NCBI RefSeq assembly: GCF_030845195.1
Contig: NZ_CP132543.1
Location: forward strand, 2,311,501-2,375,500
From: Sanyastnella coralliicola
GTDB taxonomy: Bacteria; Bacteroidota; Bacteroidia; Flavobacteriales_D; Sanyastnellaceae
Direction of reading: 5' to 3'
DNA length: 64,000 nucleotides
Positions 30,891 to 42,453 of the stretch are shown piece after piece (the stretch's first letter is position 1; every line of letters begins with the position of its first letter). The notes beneath the pieces were generated by a model. It did no database searches, had not been told where the DNA came from, and was given only the letters and a program-made list of their open reading frames with translations. Made by a program: the position numbers and the translations under genes.

Positions 30891-30913
30891 GATTGATGAA
30901 TACGAAGTGCACC

Positions 30914-30976
30914 CTTCATTCTAATTCTCACTCTAATTCTAATTCTCACTCTAATTCTAATTATAATTCTTCCTCC
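30914..30976 (+). repeat. Hexamer repeat (TCTAAT/TCTCAC)
   Basis: About nine 6-nt units of CTAATT / CTCACT type, just before a transcription terminator. The same hexamers, read as Ser-Asn/Ser-His codons, occur inside the lipoprotein gene at 31.86-31.98 kb. Confidence 0.85.
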
Positions 30977-30990
30977 CCCCCTTCCTCTAA

Positions 30991-31018
30991 AGCCAGCCTA
31001 TCGGGGCTGGCTTTTTTA
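30991..31018 (+). terminator. Hairpin terminator
   Basis: AGCCAGCC / GGCTGGCT stem with a TATCGG loop and a run of seven T. It ends whatever transcript comes from the 29.5-31.0 kb region; the next gene starts 45 nt later. Confidence 0.85.
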
Positions 31019-31062
31019 TGGCACATTTTTGGAGACGGATTGAATCAAATACATTTGGTTTT

Positions 31063-31605
31063 ATGTCTGGATTCAAGTCGTTTCTTTTTTCTCTGGCGTT
31101 ACTATCTTCTTTCGTGGGTCTGGCGCAAGAGCGAATCATCACTGTCGCTCCAAATTTGTCTTTTGAAAATTACGAGCACTTCAAACGCTTGGTTTTGGAT
31201 TCACCTGATTCAGAAGTTGTGTTTCTAGAGGGCTTTGAATATGAATGGGGCTACACATATGAGATCCGAGTCAACGAACGGAAACTCCCATCTACCCTTT
31301 CTGATGGTACTCGATTTGAATACGAATTCATTGAAGTTGTTTCTAAAACCAAAGTAATCGAGGATACCCGCTTCCAGCTTTTCATTGATCCAGACCGGTA
31401 TTTCGAAGAAGATGCAGATGAAGGGATGAATCAGACGCTGGTGCATGTAAATGATAGCACTTATCGTTATTTCGACATGGTCAACATCCTCGTCTCGCCC
31501 AAGTTGAAAGCGAAATTTGACAATGCTTACATTCAAGGCAAAGCTCGCCTCGGGCATTTCGAATATGTCTCGGGAGATACGATTCGCTTTCTTGGGTTTA
31601 AATGA
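31063..31605 (+). CDS. DUF4377 domain secreted protein
   Basis: The ATG at 31063 opens a signal peptide (MSGFKSFLFSLALLSSFVGLAQ); the earlier in-frame ATG at 31018 lies at the terminator edge. The mature part shows the DUF4377 hallmark FLEGFEYEWGYTYEIRV, preceded by a strand ending in VTVAP-like residues (IITVAPNLSFEN). DUF4377 occurs in lipoproteins related to META/HslJ proteins; the function is unknown. Confidence 0.75.
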   Translation: MSGFKSFLFSLALLSSFVGLAQERIITVAPNLSFENYEHFKRLVLDSPDSEVVFLEGFEYEWGYTYEIRVNERKLPSTLSDGTRFEYEFIEVVSKTKVIEDTRFQLFIDPDRYFEEDADEGMNQTLVHVNDSTYRYFDMVNILVSPKLKAKFDNAYIQGKARLGHFEYVSGDTIRFLGFK

Positions 31606-31622
31606 GTTTTTCTGCTCATGAA

Positions 31623-31673
31623 TCAAAGATCGATAACCGATAATCTATAAACGGTAACTGATAATCTCTAACA
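31623..31673 (+). repeat. Heptad repeat (TAATCTA/TAACCGA family)
   Basis: Seven units, GATCGA-, TAACCGA, TAATCTA, TAAACGG, TAACTGA, TAATCTC, immediately after the DUF4377 gene. The same family occurs at 17.9, 27.6 and 62.0 kb. Confidence 0.85.
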
Positions 31674-31786
31674 GGTGGGGTTTGTGTAAACGATTACTCT
31701 ATCGGTCATGATCTCAATGATTGTCTAATAGTTAACTTAGAATCAGACACAGTCAAAATGGGCTTCAGATTCTTCAAATAACGAGA

Positions 31787-32530
31787 ATGAACATGACTAT
31801 CAAGACAATAACGATTACGATCCTCACTGTGATTACCCTCGGCTGCGTTAATACCACTTCCAACTCTGATTCCAATTCTCACTCTTCCTCCACCCCTCCT
31901 TCTAATTCTCATTCTAATTCTCATTCTAATTCTAATTCTAATTCTAATTCTTCCTCTCCCTCTCCCTCTCCCTCTTCCTCTAAAATCGACACTTCTCTCA
32001 TCTACCGCACAGACACCTACCACGAATCTAACGGCGACATCATCATCCAGCATGGTTATCCACGAGGTGGTGGTGATTTGGATGGCTTAAGAGGCTACCA
32101 GAATCAAGAAGGACAGCAATTCGGACACGCCTTCTTCTGGACGCGGTTAGTCAATGAAACGTCAGAGTCCATTGACCTAGATATCTCCTTCCCCGGAGAC
32201 TCCATTAAGTACGACAAGAGCGATAGCGCTTACCTGAAGTTCTTCATTGTCCCTTCCCCGTTTGACCTTAGCCAACTTGAAGAATATAGCTACGGCATAA
32301 AGGGATTCAGGTATCACCTTGACACTGCCTTCTACGAACCGCAAATCGCTCAAAGCTCCATCCCTCCCGGAGGAGACTTCGGATTCTACATGGCAGTTCT
32401 CACACATGAAGGATTCTACGCTTGGCGCAACACCTTGCTCATCGACGGCGACTCATTGAAATACTCCGTACGCACCAACGCCACAGATTCATTGGTGATT
32501 GATTTGGGGAGGTTGCGGCGTAATTGGTAG
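31787..32530 (+). CDS. Lipoprotein with repeat-encoded Ser/Asn linker
   Basis: A 247-aa protein with a lipoprotein signal (ITLGC, Cys20). Residues ~25-65 form a Ser/Asn/His/Pro linker coded by a 6-nt tandem repeat. The remaining ~180 residues are a compact domain (QFGHAFFWTRLVNETSESIDLDI ... SIPPGGDFGFYMAVL) that I do not recognise. The repeat number is a likely site of length variation; because units are 6 nt, changes would keep the frame. Confidence 0.7.
   Translation: MNMTIKTITITILTVITLGCVNTTSNSDSNSHSSSTPPSNSHSNSHSNSNSNSNSSSPSPSPSSSKIDTSLIYRTDTYHESNGDIIIQHGYPRGGGDLDGLRGYQNQEGQQFGHAFFWTRLVNETSESIDLDISFPGDSIKYDKSDSAYLKFFIVPSPFDLSQLEEYSYGIKGFRYHLDTAFYEPQIAQSSIPPGGDFGFYMAVLTHEGFYAWRNTLLIDGDSLKYSVRTNATDSLVIDLGRLRRNW
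31861..31980 (+). repeat. In-frame hexamer repeat inside lipoprotein gene
   Basis: About twenty 6-nt units (TCTAAT, TCTCAT, TCTCAC, then TCTCCC) give Ser-Asn, Ser-His and Ser-Pro dipeptides. It matches the non-coding block at 30914-30976. Confidence 0.88.
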
Positions 32531-32598: not shown

Positions 32599-33645
32599 TC
32601 ATTCTTCCAACCATTTCTTCGGCGGCACCAAAAAGATCCCGAATCGAAAGAAGGGCGCCCCGCCTATTGTATTCGAAATGGCGAGGTTGTCTGAGTTTCC
32701 GAGATTGAAGGCCCGGTCGAAGAAAGCGTCTGAATCAGAGACATCAAAATTGATGTTCCAGCGGTAGCCTCCAGAAGCAGAAACCCAGAAGAAATCATAG
32801 ACTTCATGTTCGTAAGTGAACATGGCTTTCACATCGGCTTTTTCGAGGTAGAGTGGGACCTCTGAAAAGCCATCGAGATTAATATTGTAGTTGTCTCCTT
32901 CAAGCTTTGTTTCGACGTACAGATTGTTCTTTTCATTGGGTCGATACAGCAATCGTGCTGAAAGCGGTAGGAGTAGTTCCACAGCCCACTTCGGACGATA
33001 ACGATGCTTCAAAAAGAACACAGGGTAGACGCTTGATCTTCCAAAGCTGTTGCTGTAGCTCACCCCAAATCCCCATGTCTTGTAGCGGTGTTGTTTGATT
33101 CCGTACAACCCAGTGAATGATGTCTTTTGATGAGACCGAATTGTTCCTGTTTCGAAGTCGCCATTTAAGCGAAGCGTTCCGCGAAAAGCGAGATACTTAT
33201 TACCAATAAAGGAATGCACGCTGTACAACGACAACCCCATGCTACGCAATGGCTTGTCTTCAATGCTACTGTGGAAGGGATTGCCCTCTAGCACCGGCTG
33301 CTCGAAGGCGAACTCTTGTTGGTAATACTTGAAACCGACGATGAATTTGAAGTAGTCTTTATTAACCACCGGAATTCTCAAGCGAGCACTCCAACTCTTG
33401 GTACGACGAATCGCATTGTTGAAGGTGGAATCAGTCTCGGTGAACTGACTATTCAAATCGTAATTCGGAATGCGTTCTTGAAAAACCTCCAAGCCTTTTG
33501 ATCGAGGAAGACCTAAGATCGATGGAATCGTAAAACCATGAGGTGTACACACACCAAGCTGAGCCAACGAATCAATGTCAGGTTGGGCCCGGAGCTCTGA
33601 ACAAATGCTCAAGGATAGGAACAGTAGCAGTATACAGTGTCTCAT
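32599..33645 (-). CDS. DUF6268-type outer-membrane beta-barrel protein
   Basis: The start is set at 33645 (MRHCILLLFLSLSICSELRAQ, a signal peptide); the next Met upstream adds only MLLRGVR. The ~320-residue mature chain is made of alternating amphipathic strands with aromatic ends, ending WLEE rather than a T9SS domain. The pattern fits DUF6268 barrels. It is last in the minus-strand ppk1 operon, 39 nt after the HD-PycTM gene. Function unknown. Confidence 0.65.
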   Translation of the reverse strand: MRHCILLLFLSLSICSELRAQPDIDSLAQLGVCTPHGFTIPSILGLPRSKGLEVFQERIPNYDLNSQFTETDSTFNNAIRRTKSWSARLRIPVVNKDYFKFIVGFKYYQQEFAFEQPVLEGNPFHSSIEDKPLRSMGLSLYSVHSFIGNKYLAFRGTLRLNGDFETGTIRSHQKTSFTGLYGIKQHRYKTWGFGVSYSNSFGRSSVYPVFFLKHRYRPKWAVELLLPLSARLLYRPNEKNNLYVETKLEGDNYNINLDGFSEVPLYLEKADVKAMFTYEHEVYDFFWVSASGGYRWNINFDVSDSDAFFDRAFNLGNSDNLAISNTIGGAPFFRFGIFLVPPKKWLEE

Positions 33646-33684
33646 GCGCACGCCGCGTAGCAGCAATCGGTGTTTACAGCCTAT

Positions 33685-34896
33685 TTATGTTGTTGGAACT
33701 CCGCCTTCAGGAATACTCAATAAGAAGAGCACAATCGAAACGATCAGTCCGATCACAAACGTATAATAGCTGTAACGCAACAGCACATATTTTCTGTTCA
33801 AGACTTTCCCAAGGAAATATAAATCGCGAGTCAAACTCTTGTAGAGGTATTCCTTGTCACGCATCAACTCTCCGATACCCCACTCGTAGTCATCTAACGA
33901 CATGCTATGGAAATTCCCGAAGAAGATTAGGTTACCTTCACGGTTGATGACTTGCTCTCGGGTTAGTTTCCCATGTGTCGTCTTCGGAATCGTAGACAGA
34001 ATTGAAATGATAATGGTTATGATACTGAAGATGATCAACGACAACCCCGGGTAGATGATGTACGGATTGGTATCCATCTTCGGGAACATTGTCGATAACA
34101 CGATAGAGATGATAATGGCATTGACACTAATGAGCGTGTTCGCCTTATTATCTGCAATACGACTCAAGTTAACGTGGTTCCGTAGGGTCACACGGAACAT
34201 TGTCTCAATCCCCTTCTCAGGAATATTAGAGTCTACTTTATTCTTCTTCTTCCTCCCCTTCTTAGTCTTCCCCTCCACAATCTTATCAAGCTCATCCGTC
34301 TCAAGCATGGCCTTCAAAGTCTCAATATTTCGATCCTTCTGCGCGGTGAAATTTTCTTGAGCGTATTTCGTCTTAAACTGGTGATCACGCATGAATTTGA
34401 GGCTCATGCTTTTCCAATCATGTTCCTTCAGATCCATGCCACCGCAGGAGTTCATCTCATGAAGAAGGTTCTTAAACGTGGTTTCGAAGTACTTCTCACT
34501 ACCTAGGTGAGCGAGGTCAGCATCTTGAATGATCTGTTCAAGTTTATCCGATGCTTCCGTCCCCATTCGGGTTGCTTTAATCACACGTTCGATAACGGCG
34601 ATTTGTTCTGGATCTACTTCTTCCTTCGTCAGGAACGCATTCGCTTCTTTTGCTCCTTGGGCTTCGTGATCTACCTTGCCTTTGTAGTAAGCTACATCAT
34701 GGAACAAGGCCGCAATACGCAGGCAGTCTAGCTCGTCCTGTGAAACGCCTTCAGCTTCACCGATCTGCTTTGCAGCATCGTGCACCATCATGGTGTGCTC
34801 CCAGTTATGATAGGTAAGATCAGCTGTAGCGTGCTCATCAAAGACCGACTTTACATACTCGGCGCACTTGCTGATCAATTCATTTTTATCACTCAT
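33685..34896 (-). CDS. HD phosphohydrolase with C-terminal Pycsar effector (PycTM, DUF5706) domain
   Basis: A 403-aa protein. Residues ~1-195 form an HD domain with H34 in YHNWEHT, H66-D67 in LFHDVAYYKGKVDHE and a later Asp in IQDADLAHLG. A Lys-rich linker (~210-228) follows. Residues ~230-400 are a PycTM/DUF5706 domain: IETMFRVTLRNHVNLSRIADNKANTLISVNA (quoted in parts: IADNKAN is the hallmark), two adjacent helices, an FFGNFHSMSLDDYEW motif, and a last helix. In Pycsar defence, PycTM effectors sense cCMP/cUMP and perforate the membrane. The HD fusion is frequent in Bacteroidota and uncharacterised; the HD part could degrade the same signal. A class III cyclase is in the same operon. Confidence 0.85.
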   Translation of the reverse strand: MSDKNELISKCAEYVKSVFDEHATADLTYHNWEHTMMVHDAAKQIGEAEGVSQDELDCLRIAALFHDVAYYKGKVDHEAQGAKEANAFLTKEEVDPEQIAVIERVIKATRMGTEASDKLEQIIQDADLAHLGSEKYFETTFKNLLHEMNSCGGMDLKEHDWKSMSLKFMRDHQFKTKYAQENFTAQKDRNIETLKAMLETDELDKIVEGKTKKGRKKKNKVDSNIPEKGIETMFRVTLRNHVNLSRIADNKANTLISVNAIIISIVLSTMFPKMDTNPYIIYPGLSLIIFSIITIIISILSTIPKTTHGKLTREQVINREGNLIFFGNFHSMSLDDYEWGIGELMRDKEYLYKSLTRDLYFLGKVLNRKYVLLRYSYYTFVIGLIVSIVLFLLSIPEGGVPTT

Positions 34897-34908: not shown

Positions 34909-37900
34909 TTAAAAGTAGAATCGTGTTCCAATCAACAGGATCTCATCCACGTCAGAGATTGAATACGTTCCTACCAAGGTGAATACGTCGATGAAGTTCA
35001 AGAAGATACCTCCTCCATAACTTGCATGCCAACGATCGGAATTCTCATTGTCTTCCCACACCCTCGCGACGTCTGAATGTCCGACCACACCCACCTTGAA
35101 AGGTACAATGTAGTTCTTGACATTGAACAAGTTAACACGTAGGTCCAGGTTATTGTATGAACTTGTTCTACCAGAGAAGCGATTACGTTGCACTCCGCGG
35201 AAATTTTGGAATCCATTGAGGAACGCTGCTTGGAAGAACGCGTAATCTCCGAAATTATGTTCTCCTCCCACTCGGAAATTCAAAGATGCTTTGTTTCTCA
35301 AGAAGGAAATCGGGATGTAGAAGCGAGCTTCAGACGAAACCTTCACATAAGAAACATTGTCATTCGTCATGCTACTGTTAGCGAACGCTCCGGCCATGAA
35401 ATACACGCCACGCTTAGAGAAATTGATCACTTCCGTGTTCTCATAAACGTACTCAAAACCTCCTCCTACGAAGTCTTGTCCTTGGTATTCCCATGGGTTC
35501 ACTTCATCTAAGGGTCCGTCGAGCACATCGGCATATTGATATCCTAAGCTGAACTGAAGGTATTGAGAACGACTCTTAGAGGTGAAACGCAAGCTCGCTT
35601 GCCCTTGGAAATCGTTCATTCGAACTTGGTTGTTCTCGATCTCTTGATTCTCAACCTGGGTCTCGTTCCCTGCTCCAAAGTACTGGAAGACCAATGGCTG
35701 CGTTAATTCCAGCTTTCCTGCGAGGTCTGCTTTCCCGAAGACATCCACGTACTGGAACTGATAATCAATGTTATATCCTTCGGATCCAAAGGCGTAGTGT
35801 GCCGTTAGCTTGTGCTCTTGCGCAAATGGCGACTTCTTAAAGCCTTGTTTCACGAGTCTAAACCCAGGACCTATGTAGAAGCCATCATTCGGGTTAAATC
35901 CAAGAGAAGCAGAAGGTGCAAGCACATTGGTCTTGTAGTCTTTTCGATCATAATCCATCGGATCAATCTCGTCGGCTACGACCATCTTCGCTTCTTTACC
36001 GAATTCGATTTCGTTGTTCCCTTCTACTTCGTAGATACGCGTCATTTTCTTCAAGCCACGCACCTTCGATTTGTCTTCGATATGATCACTCTGGTCTCCG
36101 GCGATAATGCGAATCAGAATACTCTCATCCACCTTCCCTTTGATCTTGTACTCATCGTTTCCTTCGATTCCATAGAGTCTGATTTCTTTAGTCTCGTCTG
36201 GGTAGAAGATGCGGTGGTAGTACTGCTTCTTTTCTTTCTTCTTCCCTTTCTTTCTAGGGTAGACATTCACCTCCACTGACCCATCGTCATGGCGCTTTAC
36301 GTCGAAGTAGTCGTCTTTCAAGGTTCCTGCAATACTCACTTCTTTGGCTAGAATCTCGTAGTACTCTTCAGCAAATTCGACCAAGTTGGCTCTTCGTGCT
36401 TTTAATACTTCGATGATTTCTTCTCCATTCACTTCAAACCCTTCGGGTGGAAGATCTGCAAAGGCGGCAGCGATCACCTCATCAGTGACATTCTCCTGTA
36501 AGTACTTGGCAGCGGCGATGAAGTCTTCACGAGAGGCTTCCACCAAGAAAGAGCGATCGAAGTAGCGCGCGTTGAAATTCTGCCCAATCATATCGCGAAT
36601 CTCTTCACGGAATGGCTGGAATTTTCTGATGGTCCACTTACGATTTGCCAAGTTCAAGAATAAGCCATCAAACTGGAAAAAGGCCTGGTCACGATCTCGA
36701 GGGATGGCGCGGTAGTAGGTGTATTTCCCTTCTTTGAATACGCCCCATCTCCACTGGTCGTCGTGACGATCCCAATCTCCGATCAAGACATCGAACAGAC
36801 GTGCTTTGACCATATACTCTTTGTCAACCACGTGCGTATAGTGATCATGCATCTCTTCGATGGCTTCGTGGTAGTTGATCACTTCTTCTGAGTTCCCGAA
36901 TGAATCAGCGTCGCTCATGTCGTCATTCGGACGTTCTTCAAATAAGCAGAACATTCCGCCAAACTCCTCTTGATAGTCACCTAAAATTGGATCATCTGGA
37001 AGGTAGACCAGCGTTGGGTTACTGTGGTACACCCCTGCTGCCGACGACAATTTTGGGATCACTACAGAAGCATAAGGGTGCGAACCAGCCATACCATCAT
37101 AGATAATGTCTTGGGCCAAGGTTCCTCTCAAGTTCTTCGCTGTCAAGAAGGTTGAATTCTTCTTGATTCCACGCAAGACGTATTGCTTGCCATCTCCTCC
37201 TTGCATGCGCAACGATAACGTTTGCATCCCTCCTCCTTTCTTGATCGGAGTGAGTCCGCCATGAACGTAATGGATATCGAGGTAAGGAACCTTTACCGGA
37301 GTACACCATAGGTCTCTGTTCAAATCTCCAAAGAAGACACGTTTGAGGCCGCTTGCGTCGAAGCTACTATCTGGTACTACTGTGGCGAACTGCCCTTCGT
37401 AAGACACCTTCTCCACTTCGGCGATAGCCTTCACCCCCACCAAATCACGCTGAAACAACATCTTACGGAAGGCAAGCGTCTCCTGGCGCGTTTCCACGTT
37501 AGTGGTATAAAACTCAACCCAAACTTCACCGTTATCGTAGACATTGATCTTTGAATAACCACGCTCTTCAGCACCAAACTGAATCTGGTTGTCATACTTG
37601 AGGTGGGTGACTTTGCTACCCGCACCACTTACGATGTGATGGATATTGTTCTTTGAAACATACTGGAGATTGTGTTCGTGTCCAGCTACATAAGTCACGT
37701 TCTCGTACTCGTTCATTGCTGACAATAGCTGATCACGCATCTCCCAATACACCGGGTGAGCGATGTCTTGCGGATGCCCAAAAAACTTGCGGTACAGCGG
37801 GTAAATACTACCGATGACTGGTAATGGAATGTAGGCCTTGTCAGCCACAGCCGTCAAAGGAAACAAGTGGTCTTTCACTTCGAAATGGCCACCATGATGT

Positions 37901-38601
37901 CCATTGCTGTACAAGGGATGATGCCCTGCTACGATCACGTGCTGATTGCGGTACTTCTTCAATAGATCTTTGAACTGAACCATGAGCTCAGACGCATTGC
38001 GCACATCACAACCATCTTTCTCTCCGCTCGGACGTTCAAATTCATGCAGCCACCATTGAGTATCAATGATGATCAGAACCACTCCAGGAGCCAACTTAAT
38101 ATCTTCTGGTCCCGGACAACCGTGACTTGGAAGGAATACGTTGCCTTTATCGAGGTACTCTTGAACGTACTTCTCTTGGCGCTTTACATGCTTCCAACCT
38201 CCAGAACCCTGACGGTCCCAATCGTGATTTCCTGGAATGACGAAAATGTCGCCTTCGAAGTATTTTACCGCGTCTAGCTGCACATTCAAACGTTCCTCGT
38301 CGAGCGGACGTTTTTTGCTCTTCTTCTTGTGCATACCTTCAGGGTAGATGTTGTCTCCCAGAAGAATGACACCAGAACGATCAGCTGGAGCCGCATCAAG
38401 TTGATCTTGAAGTCGATCCATCACTGGAGTAGAGTAAGCCGTGTCTCCTCCTGCATCTCCAACGAGGTAGAAAGAATAAACCAACTCAGATGTTGGTAGC
38501 GGCGTGTCTTCCCATCCGCGTTCAGCGCGTTGGTAGAACATGTCTTGCTTCGCACATGAAGCAAGTAAGATGACCGTAAGAATGAGCAGAATTCTATTCA
38601 T
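34909..38601 (-). CDS. Metallophosphatase - kinase-like - outer-membrane barrel fusion
   Basis: A 1230-aa protein with a lipobox (LLASC, Cys16). Residues ~40-370 are a calcineurin-like metallophosphatase with all motifs: GDAGGD (48-53), GDN (82-84), GNHD (124-127), GHHP (226-229), GHEH (307-310). Residues ~440-700 contain a segment like FAM20C/HipA-type kinases: a candidate nucleotide Lys near YVLRGIKKN (~480), a catalytic-loop-like LIGDWDRHDDQW (DRH 611-613) and a metal-Asp-like PRDRDQAF (636-638). The last ~400 residues are a surface-antigen-like beta-barrel ending in RFYF. It overlaps the SdiA-regulated-like gene by 8 nt. The phosphatase and barrel are clear; the kinase-like call is my inference from motifs. 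Confidence 0.8.
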   Translation of the reverse strand: MNRILLILTVILLASCAKQDMFYQRAERGWEDTPLPTSELVYSFYLVGDAGGDTAYSTPVMDRLQDQLDAAPADRSGVILLGDNIYPEGMHKKKSKKRPLDEERLNVQLDAVKYFEGDIFVIPGNHDWDRQGSGGWKHVKRQEKYVQEYLDKGNVFLPSHGCPGPEDIKLAPGVVLIIIDTQWWLHEFERPSGEKDGCDVRNASELMVQFKDLLKKYRNQHVIVAGHHPLYSNGHHGGHFEVKDHLFPLTAVADKAYIPLPVIGSIYPLYRKFFGHPQDIAHPVYWEMRDQLLSAMNEYENVTYVAGHEHNLQYVSKNNIHHIVSGAGSKVTHLKYDNQIQFGAEERGYSKINVYDNGEVWVEFYTTNVETRQETLAFRKMLFQRDLVGVKAIAEVEKVSYEGQFATVVPDSSFDASGLKRVFFGDLNRDLWCTPVKVPYLDIHYVHGGLTPIKKGGGMQTLSLRMQGGDGKQYVLRGIKKNSTFLTAKNLRGTLAQDIIYDGMAGSHPYASVVIPKLSSAAGVYHSNPTLVYLPDDPILGDYQEEFGGMFCLFEERPNDDMSDADSFGNSEEVINYHEAIEEMHDHYTHVVDKEYMVKARLFDVLIGDWDRHDDQWRWGVFKEGKYTYYRAIPRDRDQAFFQFDGLFLNLANRKWTIRKFQPFREEIRDMIGQNFNARYFDRSFLVEASREDFIAAAKYLQENVTDEVIAAAFADLPPEGFEVNGEEIIEVLKARRANLVEFAEEYYEILAKEVSIAGTLKDDYFDVKRHDDGSVEVNVYPRKKGKKKEKKQYYHRIFYPDETKEIRLYGIEGNDEYKIKGKVDESILIRIIAGDQSDHIEDKSKVRGLKKMTRIYEVEGNNEIEFGKEAKMVVADEIDPMDYDRKDYKTNVLAPSASLGFNPNDGFYIGPGFRLVKQGFKKSPFAQEHKLTAHYAFGSEGYNIDYQFQYVDVFGKADLAGKLELTQPLVFQYFGAGNETQVENQEIENNQVRMNDFQGQASLRFTSKSRSQYLQFSLGYQYADVLDGPLDEVNPWEYQGQDFVGGGFEYVYENTEVINFSKRGVYFMAGAFANSSMTNDNVSYVKVSSEARFYIPISFLRNKASLNFRVGGEHNFGDYAFFQAAFLNGFQNFRGVQRNRFSGRTSSYNNLDLRVNLFNVKNYIVPFKVGVVGHSDVARVWEDNENSDRWHASYGGGIFLNFIDVFTLVGTYSISDVDEILLIGTRFYF

Positions 38602-39403
38602 GATTGGTCTTCATTTCGAGGTGGACAATGGTTGGGGTATCATCGCCTTGTTCGTTGGCGATGTACATTTTCCCGTCCGGAGCGAAGGTGATCCCTTCGG
38701 GCTGCGGATAGATATAAGGATCCAGTGGTGAAATCTGCTTAAAGATTCCTTTCTCAGAGATGACCAGAATCGATTTCGAAACCGAACTCAAGATGTAAAT
38801 CTCTCCTGTCAACGGATGGATGGCGATTCCCGAGGCTTTGAACTCTGGATCAAATCGTGCTTTGTCAAGTTTCATCAATGGCTTTTCTTCGAAGGCATTC
38901 TTCTCAATTGAAAAAGCATAGATGTATTGATGATCGCGTTTCTTCTTGTTTCCATGCTGCTTGCAAGCGACTAGGAGTCTTTGATTCTTCGCATCAAAAC
39001 ACAAGCCTTCGAACTCTGAGGTTTTGTTTCCTTCAAACTCGAAGTGCTCTGCCTTCTCTCCATCGACCGATAGAAAGATATCTCCATCACTGCGAAGAAT
39101 GTAGCTCTTGTTGCCAATGCGAGCGATTCCTTCGAAGTCATCGTTATGTCCGAAATCGAACTTGTCTTCAATGACTCCTGAGTACGGATCAATCGTATAG
39201 ATATTGGCCTTTTCGTCTTGAATGCAAATGAGCTTATCTCCACCAATCCACTGCAGACCCGACACCTCTTGGAGTGTGTGTCCGAGCGTAACTACTTCTG
39301 AAGGTCGGTTATAATCGTACGGACCTTGCGTTGCAGGAGGAGTGCAGCTAGTTAGTGCCAGTAGGCAGCCGGTGATAACGTTAGGCAACCACATCGAATT
39401 CAT
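38594..39403 (-). CDS. SdiA-regulated-like beta-propeller lipoprotein
   Basis: A 269-aa protein with a lipoprotein signal (LALTSC). The rest follows the SdiA-regulated (PF06977) propeller pattern: EVSGLQWI, DFEGIARIGNKSYILRSDGDIF, EFEGLCFD, PSGIAIHPLTG-like (ASGIAIHPLTGEIYILSS) and QPEGITFAPDGKMYIANE. The family is exported, of unknown function, and was named for regulation by SdiA in enterics. It overlaps the cyclase gene by 23 nt and the metallophosphatase gene by 8 nt, so all three are tightly coupled. Confidence 0.8.
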   Translation of the reverse strand: MNSMWLPNVITGCLLALTSCTPPATQGPYDYNRPSEVVTLGHTLQEVSGLQWIGGDKLICIQDEKANIYTIDPYSGVIEDKFDFGHNDDFEGIARIGNKSYILRSDGDIFLSVDGEKAEHFEFEGNKTSEFEGLCFDAKNQRLLVACKQHGNKKKRDHQYIYAFSIEKNAFEEKPLMKLDKARFDPEFKASGIAIHPLTGEIYILSSVSKSILVISEKGIFKQISPLDPYIYPQPEGITFAPDGKMYIANEQGDDTPTIVHLEMKTNHE

Positions 39404-40478
39404 TCTTCACTTTAAAGATTTCAACTATCTTCTTCTTTCCTTTCAACTCAATATGTCCGCCGGTGACGAACTCATAAGGAGATTCTTCATGCATCACGCT
39501 ATGCAGATCAGAACTCACCAGGAGATGTGATTCGAACACATTGCATTGCTCTTGGATGCGTGAGGTGGTGTTGAGCGTATCGCCATGGTAGGTTATTTCA
39601 CGTTTGATTGTTCCGACTTCAGAAATAATCGCCGGCCCCACATGTGCTCCTGCTTTGAATTCTGGAACTAAGCCGTAGTTCTCGATGTAATAGTCCTTAC
39701 GCGAGTTAATTCTTCTCTGGAACTCAAGGAAAGCGGGAATGATGCGTCCGAAATTCTTCTTCTTCTTTGCTGACCAACTCAGTACTACCTCATCACCAAC
39801 GTATTGGTATACGGCAGCGTGGTACTGGTCAACCACTGCTAAATCTTGGAAGCTATCTCGCAGCAACTTGCTGTATTGGAAATGTCCAAGCTTCTCAGCA
39901 ATTGTAGTGGATCCTTTGAGGTCAATAAACATGAAGATGCGATCCTCCTCACGAGGATTGTAGAATCGTCCAAGGATGAATTTCCAGAGATTTCCAGGAC
40001 CAAGTTTTCGATCAATTTCAATAAGAATTCGAGAAATGATCATCGCAGAGAAGAGCTGTATCATACTAATCGCCAGCTCGGCTCGATTTACTCGCATGGT
40101 ATCTCCTCCAGTTAGATGTTCGAAATATCGATGGATCACCGTATCAAACAAATAAACGAAAGCCAACATCAACCCGAAGTTCACCAAAAACGTAGAAAGC
40201 AGAGTCAAGAGGAACGATCTGGCATGCATGATTCTCGGAATGACATAAAGGTCAGTCAAAGAAAGTAGTGCTGAAATCGCTGCCGAAGCAACGATCATTG
40301 CTGTAGCATAGAATGGAAAACGCTGCCCAATCTCGAGATAAGAAAATTCTAGTGGCTCTATCCCATAAGCTCTTAAGACACCGTTTCTGGTGATGAAGAA
40401 CACTGTATTGGAAAGTACCAATACAATGAAGTAGATGACGAAGTTTCGTTTGAACTGTCGTCTATTAACCCCGCTCAT
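39381..40478 (-). CDS. Membrane-anchored class III nucleotide cyclase
   Basis: A 365-aa protein with four N-terminal transmembrane helices (~12-29, 55-80, 88-111, 135-153). The C-terminal ~185 residues are a class III cyclase catalytic domain: metal Asp D186 in FMFIDLKGST, second metal Asp D229 in YQYVGDEVVL, and the transition-state pair N303/R307 in HGDTLNTTSRIQ. All catalytic positions are present, so it should be active as a homodimer. Whether it makes cAMP, cGMP or a cyclic pyrimidine cannot be told from sequence. It overlaps ppk1 by 14 nt and is upstream of the HD-PycTM gene. Confidence 0.88.
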   Translation of the reverse strand: MSGVNRRQFKRNFVIYFIVLVLSNTVFFITRNGVLRAYGIEPLEFSYLEIGQRFPFYATAMIVASAAISALLSLTDLYVIPRIMHARSFLLTLLSTFLVNFGLMLAFVYLFDTVIHRYFEHLTGGDTMRVNRAELAISMIQLFSAMIISRILIEIDRKLGPGNLWKFILGRFYNPREEDRIFMFIDLKGSTTIAEKLGHFQYSKLLRDSFQDLAVVDQYHAAVYQYVGDEVVLSWSAKKKKNFGRIIPAFLEFQRRINSRKDYYIENYGLVPEFKAGAHVGPAIISEVGTIKREITYHGDTLNTTSRIQEQCNVFESHLLVSSDLHSVMHEESPYEFVTGGHIELKGKKKIVEIFKVKNEFDVVA

Positions 40479-42453
40479 AAGCTTTAATTACATCAAACAT
40501 TTGGCGCTGAGATGAGTGCTTTTTCCTTCCCTTCAAATAGGTATTGGTCATGACGTCTCGTCCTTTGACATTATCACTCAACTGAAGCTCCATTTCTTTG
40601 AGAAGCAATTGTTTCATTGCCTCATTGGTAATTGGGAAAGCGACCTCTACGCGATGTGAAAGATTCCGCGTCATCCAATCTGCAGATGCCAAGTAAACCT
40701 CAGGCTTACCGTTATTATTGAAGTGGAAGATGCGTGTATGTTCCAAGAAGCCATCGACTACACTCACCACCTTGATGTTCTTCTTTTGAGCATCATTGAG
40801 CGGCGTGTAGCAGCAAATTCCTCTTACGATCATATTGATTTTCACTCCGGCGTCGGCGGCGCTTCGGATAGCATTGATCATTTCCGGGTCTTCCAAGCTG
40901 TTGACCTTGATTTGCATCGAAGCGTCTTTCCCTTTGCTCGCTAGATCAATCTCTCGTTGGATCTTTTCTAGCATTTGCGAGCGCAAGTTAAATGGTGAGC
41001 ATAGCAACGCCGCCGGCTTAACTTTCTTTTTGTCTCCCTTCAAGAAATCGAAAAGTTGGTCAAGATCATCTGTCAATGCGTTGTCTGTAGTGAACAATGC
41101 ATGGTCACCATAGATCTTGGCAGTTTTTTCGTTGAAGTTTCCTGTTCCGAAATAGGCGTAGCAGACTTCTTTATCTCCCTCTTTCCGCTTCGCGGCGAAT
41201 ACCTTAGCATGCACCTTCAGATCAGGGACGCCGTAGCGAACCGTTGCACCTGCTTGTTCTAGTCGCTCACCCCAATAGATGTTAGACTCTTCATCAAAAC
41301 GGGCTTGCACTTCGTCAAGAACGAATACTTTCTTACCCATCATGGCCGCCTTCTCTAAGCTCTGGCAAATGGCTGATTCACGGGCAACACGATAAAGAGT
41401 GATATTGATTTCAGTGACATCAGGATCAGTGCATAGTTGATCAAGGTACTGTGTCACGTAATCGTATGGTTGGTAGGGAAAGCTCAAGAATACATCTTGC
41501 TTCTTCAGCAATTTCATCCAGTTCTTCTTTGACTCAAGCTTCGAACTCAAGATCAATTCAGGGTCATTACTCACTTCATCAGAAGGCTTCGGAAAGCCCA
41601 TAAAGTCATAGAAGTTGTGGTAACGTCCACCTGGGATCAATCCGCTGGTTTCGATTTGAACCTTCTTTCGAAGGATATTCAAGTGGCGGTAAGGGATCTC
41701 TTGATCAAAAAGTAAGCGTGCTGGAAGACCGGTTTCTCGTTTCCCTACACTCTTCTTGATCTTCTTTACGATGTCTAGCTCCTGTTCCTCTTCGATGTAG
41801 AGTTCAGCATCGCGAGACACCTTGATGGCATAAACTTCAGCGTCTTTACCAAGGAGTTCTTTTATGTTGTATTTAACGATGTCATCGAGCTGGGCAATCT
41901 TTCTTCGTGAACCATTGTTGTGCAATTCAATGAAGCGTCCGTGACGTTCGTAGTCTAGATCAATTATCCATTGCTGGTCTTCCGTTACCGCATAGAGATA
42001 GACATGCTGGTTACGGAGTTCGATTCGGTCTTCCTTGGTGATGTCTTTGAATACCACATCCTTTTTCAACTTCTCATCGAAGATTGAACGCATGTTTCGT
42101 TTATCGGTGCGTGTGTAATCGCCATTTCCAGCCAGCAGGATTCCGCGTTCAGCGTACATCGGAAGAATCTCGTCGACAAAGACCTTCCCAAGCCGTTCTT
42201 GTTGGCGATCGACGATTTCACTCACTTCATTCAAGACGAAAGAAGGTTTGAAACCGAATTTGTTCTTCTTGTCTCCTTTGAACTTCTGAGCGAAGCGGTG
42301 GCTCGCCACGCGTACTTTATAGAATTCTTCAAGGTTGGATGAGTAGATCGCCAAGAATTTCATGCGATCTGTCAAGGCGTTGTTCTTGTCTTCAGCCTCT
42401 TGAATAATACGTTCATTGAATGCTAGCCAACTAAGGTCTCTATCCTGGTACAT
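40465..42453 (-). CDS. ppk1: Polyphosphate kinase 1
   Basis: A 662-aa protein of usual PPK1 length. The N-domain opens with RDLSWLAFNERIIQEA and LAIYSSNLEEFYKVR. The phospholipase-D-like catalytic half has the phospho-accepting His415 in PDLKVHAKVF, YFGTGNFNEKTA and the second conserved His region SADWMTRNLSHRVE. PPK1 polymerises the gamma-phosphate of ATP into polyphosphate. It is the first gene of a six-gene minus-strand operon with the cyclase and HD-PycTM genes. A weak -7-like TACCTTTC (minus strand, 42479-42486) lies ~26 nt before the start. Confidence 0.95.
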   Translation of the reverse strand: MYQDRDLSWLAFNERIIQEAEDKNNALTDRMKFLAIYSSNLEEFYKVRVASHRFAQKFKGDKKNKFGFKPSFVLNEVSEIVDRQQERLGKVFVDEILPMYAERGILLAGNGDYTRTDKRNMRSIFDEKLKKDVVFKDITKEDRIELRNQHVYLYAVTEDQQWIIDLDYERHGRFIELHNNGSRRKIAQLDDIVKYNIKELLGKDAEVYAIKVSRDAELYIEEEQELDIVKKIKKSVGKRETGLPARLLFDQEIPYRHLNILRKKVQIETSGLIPGGRYHNFYDFMGFPKPSDEVSNDPELILSSKLESKKNWMKLLKKQDVFLSFPYQPYDYVTQYLDQLCTDPDVTEINITLYRVARESAICQSLEKAAMMGKKVFVLDEVQARFDEESNIYWGERLEQAGATVRYGVPDLKVHAKVFAAKRKEGDKEVCYAYFGTGNFNEKTAKIYGDHALFTTDNALTDDLDQLFDFLKGDKKKVKPAALLCSPFNLRSQMLEKIQREIDLASKGKDASMQIKVNSLEDPEMINAIRSAADAGVKINMIVRGICCYTPLNDAQKKNIKVVSVVDGFLEHTRIFHFNNNGKPEVYLASADWMTRNLSHRVEVAFPITNEAMKQLLLKEMELQLSDNVKGRDVMTNTYLKGRKKHSSQRQMFDVIKAYERG

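Follow-up and report, generated by a model that had tools for sequence, protein, structure and literature searches.

The 64,000-nucleotide stretch of the Sanyastnella coralliicola genome analysed here (contig NZ_CP132543.1, positions 2,311,501 to 2,375,500; hereafter the window) encodes on its minus strand a three-part protein (34909..38601), an open reading frame (ORF) of 1230 amino acids with an ATG start. A signal peptide with the lipobox LLASC (residues 1-16, 38554..38601), whose Cys16 is predicted to be lipidated, is followed by a metallophosphatase of the purple acid phosphatase type (approximately residues 40-385, 37447..38484), a kinase-like domain of an unannotated family (residues 411-768, 36298..37371), a linker judged by eye to be beta-rich (approximately residues 769-905, 35887..36297) and an Omp85-type outer-membrane barrel (approximately residues 906-1230, 34909..35886). 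Within the kinase-like domain lie LIGDWDRHDDQW (residues 606-617, 36751..36786), a candidate catalytic loop, and PRDRDQAF (residues 634-641, 36679..36702), which contains D636, a candidate metal-binding residue. From sequence comparison we consider it probable that this protein is an exported outer-membrane enzyme pair, in which a phosphatase of the purple acid type shares an Omp85 barrel with an atypical kinase from the HipA/CtkA/FAM20 branch.

An earlier sequence-only reading of this DNA had proposed that a metallophosphatase, a middle segment and a barrel are joined in one protein, and Pfam confirmed this: Metallophos (PF00149) matched residues 45-246 with 36.5 bits against a cut-off of 21.5, and Omp85 (PF01103) matched residues 977-1199 with 25.8 bits against a cut-off of 24. 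The NCBIfam model Omp85_fam matched with an expectation value (E) of 5.1e-19, yet remained under its own cut-off. There was no Pfam match to POTRA in the three-part protein, and the residues between Metallophos and Omp85 matched no Pfam family at E <= 1. The phosphatase part contains the motifs GDAG, GDNIY, GNHD, GHH and GHEH, which supply the full purple-acid-type ligand set D, D, Y, N, H, H, H, and its closest PDB chains were tartrate-resistant or purple acid phosphatases (E 2.4e-5). Among 36 aligned rows including the window protein, the metal ligands were retained at D49 in 32, D83 in 35, Y86 in 30, N125 in 32, H228 in 36, H308 in 36 and H310 in 33.

The kinase-like domain is common in the phylum. 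A profile built from 30 copies (A1) detected it in 144 of 395 genomes searched in Bacteroidota, and a protein search detected it in 22 of 247 genomes of the class. Sixty regions, picked for diversity before their neighbours were inspected, were fetched; 58 held family copies, with 64 ORFs containing the domain, and the other two, L177 and L178, surrounded a weakly scoring Fam20C match and a HipA_C gene, respectively. The alignment used below (A2) has 64 rows, the window domain and 63 family ORFs from the fetched regions, after one 110-bit copy was dropped; outside it are the window copy as fetched and its near twin (L005, L035), two copies that are cut or contain unknown letters (L010, L011) and those A1 copies that were not refetched. 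The near twin, which is 98% identical, was found by a contig search for homologues in a metagenome-assembled genome of Flavobacteriales. Among viral contigs, 13 pattern matches to the domain were found and none was confirmed. The family was also present in five plasmid records (H1-H5, 0.1 to 1.6 Mb, from Persicobacter, Hymenobacter and Parabacteroides), where it is annotated as hypothetical or unannotated.

Conservation across A2 centred on the candidate catalytic residues. D502, P509, D604, D609 and R736 were invariant in all 64 rows. Within the catalytic-loop candidate (residues 604-619), D611 was retained in 58 rows, R612 in 62, H613 in 58 and W617 in 63, and position 616, five residues after D611 (D+5), was Gln in 59 and Asn in 5; beyond the loop, D636 was retained in 63 and D638 in 61. 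The sequence DRHxDQ matches the Asp, the Arg/Asn-His and the metal residue at D+5 of a kinase loop, and D636, 25 residues past D611, would be the second, DFG-type metal Asp. These two motifs lie exactly where the sequence-only reading had put them, and the check that it set beforehand, conservation of D611, R612, H613 and D636/D638, was borne out in 58 to 63 of 64 homologues. D611, H613, Q/N616 and D636 were retained jointly in 58 copies. Judging from this conservation in 64 copies, the DRH motif is not a chance occurrence. Candidate residues of the N-lobe, assigned by eye to a Gly-rich loop, a beta-3 Lys/Arg and an acidic partner, were also conserved: G456 in 60, G457 in 61, R477 in 62 (with Lys in 2), K481 in 61, E555 in 62 and the invariant D502, the Gly-rich stretch of the window domain being residues 456-458. 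Four distant relatives with a barrel (L183-L186) have lost the DRH motif in their printed sequences and are likely pseudokinases. Two other loci carry adjoining stand-alone kinase-like paralogues, two in L139:4436-7775 and three in L140:3629-8648, and one paralogue per locus has SRR in place of DRH.

The strongest line of evidence for kinship with kinases came from the PADLOC model PDLC04340 (PDC-M03A), which matched 30 of the 64 copies at E <= 0.1 (best 6e-8; window domain 2.6e-4). In a scan of 198 genomes, this model matched a family member with 30.9 bits over profile positions 127-272 of 280. PDC-M03A detects HipA-type kinases, since all 8 of its non-family hits coincided with HipA_C hits (in the genomes common to both searches, compared by eye) and all five proteins sampled from the model's hits for scanning exceeded the HipA_C cut-off. 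In hhalign, 11 proteins from PDLC04340 hits aligned with 25 HipA proteins at E 5.3e-60. Fam20C (PF06702), searched over 198 genomes, gave three matches at E <= 0.01, none above its cut-off; the best was a member of the kinase-like family (E 4.8e-4, 20.4 bits), over a stretch ending in DWDRHQ. A phmmer search with this best-matching member (L086) found 4kqa, listed in the PDB as Protein H03A11.1 and presumably C. elegans FAM20, at E 0.028 over DYLIGNQDRH, and human FAM20C at 0.66. When the A2 profile was compared with the PDB, the top chain was CtkA (E 0.15), aligning LLGNFDRHNGNW; this alignment pairs DTLLGNFDRHNGNW with DmllgDwDRhedqW and extends over 144 profile positions. The HipA_C protein L190 had weak PDB matches of its own to CtkA, a HipA_C structure and FAM20A, and its spacing between the two Asp residues, counted by eye, was the same as in the window domain. 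These PDC-M03A, Fam20C, FAM20-structure and CtkA matches support the FAM20C/HipA-like identity that had been suggested from the letters. Homology of the domain to HipA/FAM20-type kinases is, on these comparisons, well supported; we regard the domain as related to HipA_C yet do not place it as a HipA_C member, and we found no model in Pfam or NCBIfam that covers it. The term kinase-like is accordingly supported, and a kinase fold and kinase activity are predicted.

Several results weigh against this assignment. Twenty-four Pfam families were weakly matched by the 64 copies, and three of these are atypical kinases (Fam20C, CotH and HipA_C), each matched at E <= 1 by one copy. The Fam20C cut-off of 26.8 bits was not reached by the best match or by the domain alone (19.8 bits, E 6.9e-4), nor was the HipA_C (PF07804) cut-off of 30.5 bits (E 0.23, 11.5 bits), and both of these matches, at 19.8 and 11.5 bits, were in the same copy, L129. 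CotH (PF08757, cut-off 23.8 bits) matched one copy at E 0.013, and had no match to the window domain at E <= 1. Direct hhalign comparisons with HipA and CotH were not significant, with 35 and 5, respectively, of 100 block-shuffled templates scoring equally high; the catalytic Asp was in register in both despite these scores, and the top-scoring alignment to a smaller CotH set (A4) fell away from the motif. In a ranking of 696 ORFs, 553 of them background, hidden Markov models (HMMs) of HipA and CotH placed the kinase-like family no better than background (area under the curve 0.45 and 0.56). The reciprocal ranking with the A2 profile gave 0.68 for HipA and 0.55 for CotH, and its top four non-family hits were one HipA and three CotH-type proteins. 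HipA and CotH are related by fold, and they also miss each other by these HMM and hhalign tests, which therefore have little power here. An unrelated ABC-transporter chain (4zef, E 0.0026) scored better than 4kqa in the L086 search; we judged it a chance match, as it was absent from both profile searches. A single-sequence AlphaFold prediction of residues 408-775, made with no alignment, had a predicted local distance difference test score of 35.8. The D+5 residue is Gln instead of Asn in 59 of the 64 copies, and ATP is generally believed to be absent from the periplasm. Two further PDB matches were also judged to be chance: a histone deacetylase (profile A1, E 1.3-1.5), which disappeared with profile A2, and 1wlz (E 0.64 and 0.31 with the two profiles), which lies away from the motif.

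The arrangement of the parts varied among relatives. Classed by length, 36 of the 64 ORFs have a long N-terminal part, 19 have just the kinase-like domain with a barrel, and 9 have neither the long N-terminal part nor a barrel. PF00149 matched 33 of the 36 long N-terminal parts at E <= 0.01. An HMM of the linker matched 8 of the 9 barrel-less ORFs (E <= 4.1e-15; the ninth, L176, gave no match), and the linker thus also accompanies the kinase-like domain where there is no barrel. On a tree of the 64 domains the architecture changed 8 times, against a mean of 24 when architectures were shuffled, and gain or loss of parts has therefore happened repeatedly. Two genomes from a single genus encode the kinase-like domain, the phosphatase and the Omp85 barrel in three consecutive genes (L149:4551-8597 and L148:2341-6329). 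The separate genes of L149 matched PF00149 (2.3e-8) and PF01103 (7.7e-13), the family barrel HMM matched in the two loci at 2.6e-80 and 3.7e-80, and the first two genes of each run carry lipoboxes (that of the phosphatase judged by eye). That the three parts probably work together in one function is best supported by these consecutive genes. A family phosphatase HMM found a separate phosphatase gene beside none of the 19 phosphatase-less ORFs with a barrel and beside 2 of the 9 barrel-less ORFs. Genes for an ABC-2 exporter lie upstream of the three-gene run in L149, and inspection by eye places them likewise in L148, where a single ORF separates them from the run.

Within the window, the gene is part of a run on the minus strand. 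Twelve bases downstream of it is a gene for a protein with an HD domain and PycTM (33685..34896; PF18967 1e-30, HD 4.8e-8). The start of the gene overlaps by 8 bases with the gene for an SdiA-regulated-type protein (38594..39403; PF06977 2.5e-12), which we take from its family to be a propeller; this is preceded by a class III nucleotide cyclase (39381..40478; PF00211 1.9e-10, PADLOC PycC 3.4e-8) and ppk1 (40465..42453; TIGR03705 579.5 bits, cut-off 465.85). The overlaps from ppk1 to the three-part gene are 14, 23 and 8 bases. The sequence-only reading had described the gene as beside ppk1, and the two do share a run, but the cyclase and propeller genes lie between them.

Homologues of five window genes only were sought as neighbours within 4 kb, and the counts are raw, made without a random-gene control. 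An HD-PycTM homologue was the most frequent, at 30 of 36 long-architecture loci, followed by the SdiA-type protein at 17, ppk1 at 3 and the cyclase at 3; the 16 domain-plus-barrel loci had HD-PycTM at 6, SdiA-type at 6, ppk1 at 5 and cyclase at 2, and none of these neighbours was found within 4 kb of the 6 barrel-less loci. Since ppk1 is near so few loci, any link to polyphosphate is weak outside the lineage of the window. The HD-PycTM protein and the cyclase, which flank the gene in one run, both match PADLOC models, the cyclase that of Pycsar PycC. We rejected a reading of these neighbours as Pycsar defence, as a cyclase is close by in just 3 of the 36 long-architecture loci and 2 of the 16 domain-plus-barrel loci. 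Proteins of the DUF6268 (32599-33666) and DUF4377 (31018-31605) families are encoded close to the run, and neighbouring ORFs at 30893-32053 contain low-complexity stretches rich in Ser, Asn and His (SNSNSHSN...), which read as Arg-rich repeats on the opposite strand. The source genome has one copy of the kinase-like domain and nine CotH matches, and a profile search of it gave no HipA_C match.

A strict lipobox pattern was present in 15 of 36 long, 0 of 19 domain-plus-barrel and 3 of 9 barrel-less ORFs, and many further ORFs, judged by eye, have a Cys or an end resembling a signal peptidase I site. Most phosphatase-less and stand-alone forms start with an apparent signal sequence or lipobox, by eye beyond the strict pattern. 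From these N-termini, most forms of the kinase-like domain therefore appear to be exported, in contrast to HipA, which is not exported. A lipobox on a barrel protein had been thought odd; LLASC and Cys16 are indeed present, but such anchors are frequent among relatives and in other Omp85 proteins, including 386 of 513 'Lipo' Omp85 proteins in the accessible text of PMC4104836.

Combining these observations, we propose the following mechanism. The pair would be anchored at the membrane by the Omp85-type barrel and, in the window copy, also by an N-terminal lipid. Both enzyme domains would most likely face the periplasm, a placement favoured because the analogous domain of PlpD is periplasmic, as stated in the accessible text of PMC11116518. 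A phosphate donor would be bound between the Gly-rich loop and R477/K481 of the kinase-like domain, with D611 as the putative catalytic base and Q616 and D636 predicted to hold metal. The kinase-like domain would then phosphorylate a hydroxyl group on an envelope protein or glycan, and the phosphatase would strip phosphate from this substrate or a related one. A broader version is a long shot: a pair widespread in Bacteroidota and sited at the outer membrane would phosphorylate envelope proteins or glycans in a reversible manner outside the cytoplasm, supplied by a donor other than ATP, for instance polyphosphate, and would be the bacterial analogue of FAM20 kinases in the secretory pathway.

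The domain could alternatively be a pseudokinase, with the kinase fold but serving the phosphatase or barrel as a binding or regulatory module without transfer. Such a role would suit a periplasm without ATP, the 6 of 64 copies in which at least one of D611, H613, Q/N616 and D636 is missing, and the relatives L183-L186; FAM20A, the partner of FAM20C, is itself named a pseudokinase in the PDB listing. However, joint retention of the four scored positions in the other 58 copies, with D604 and D609 invariant, exceeds what mere binding would appear to need, and we consider this explanation unlikely. A compartment thought to be free of ATP would equally suit a different transferase on the kinase fold, using AMP transfer or a non-ATP donor such as polyphosphate instead of acting as an ATP kinase. 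Kinase-fold enzymes with other chemistry exist, such as SelO and SidJ, and ppk1 is in the gene run here and near the few long and phosphatase-less barrel loci counted above. As searches near the remaining 44 of 52 loci revealed no ppk1, and the sequence gives no pointer to the donor, we hold this to be quite improbable.

A role in outer-membrane assembly or quality control, with soluble domains that merely recognise clients, was the idea of Heinz and Lithgow for their 'Metallo' subfamily. It accounts for the Omp85 barrel, and these authors regard assembly as the safest assumption for uncharacterised Omp85 proteins (PMC4104836). We regard it as very improbable for the window protein: PF00149 is, per Pfam, a metallophosphoesterase family and not a metalloprotease family, the metal ligands are retained, and PlpD suggests, from the accessible text of PMC11116518, that Omp85 barrels are able to carry periplasmic enzymes.

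The enzyme pair that we favour would place a phosphatase and a relative of kinases in a single outer-membrane protein, of a family common in its phylum and found without a Pfam or NCBIfam model. If the kinase part is active, phosphates would be both added and removed beyond the cytoplasm, in a part of the bacterial cell presumed to contain no ATP. This would raise two questions: which target is phosphorylated there, and where the phosphate comes from without ATP.

The fusion of phosphatase and barrel has a precedent. The 'Metallo' subfamily of Omp85 proteins was defined in 2014 by PF00149, taken as a metalloprotease (Heinz and Lithgow, PMC4104836, accessible text). Like the window protein, which clears both Pfam cut-offs, its members combine PF00149 with an Omp85 barrel in a non-POTRA protein, and the subfamily very probably includes it. 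A term search of PMC4104836 gave no occurrence of the word 'kinase', and the middle domain seems to have gone unrecognised in the accessible text of that paper. Among the titles and abstract openings searched, none described a kinase-like domain joined to Omp85. The novelty claimed for the whole protein thus does not extend to the phosphatase-Omp85 fusion and, as far as our searches show, holds for the kinase-like family. PlpD, a patatin-Omp85 protein, similarly carries a soluble enzyme domain on an Omp85 barrel, but it is a lipase and has POTRA; its enzyme domain is periplasmic, and the passenger of this type Vd prototype does not cross the outer membrane (PMC11116518, accessible text).

Among kinases, PDC-M03A models match both HipA_C kinases and the window-type family. 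HipA_C kinases, including CtkA (3akj; a further entry, 7ab3, we take to be HipT), have a loop of the type LIGNxDRHxxNW, with an Asp 24-25 residues further on (by eye, in CtkA and L190). The window-type family differs in that it is apparently exported, has mostly Gln at D+5 and is linked to a phosphatase and a barrel, whereas HipA_C kinases are cytoplasmic or stand-alone. FAM20 kinases (4kqa, 5yh3) share the motif DxLIG[ND]xDRH with the family and are extracytoplasmic kinases of the secretory pathway, but they are eukaryotic, and the similarity spans just approximately 60-80 residues with marginal E-values. CotH is likewise an atypical kinase group, with a catalytic-loop spacing that differs by eye from that of the window-type family. 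The phosphatase part shares with tartrate-resistant and purple acid phosphatases the five metal-ligand motifs whose roles are known from those enzymes, including the tyrosine of GDNIY, and is unlike them in being fused to two other domains.

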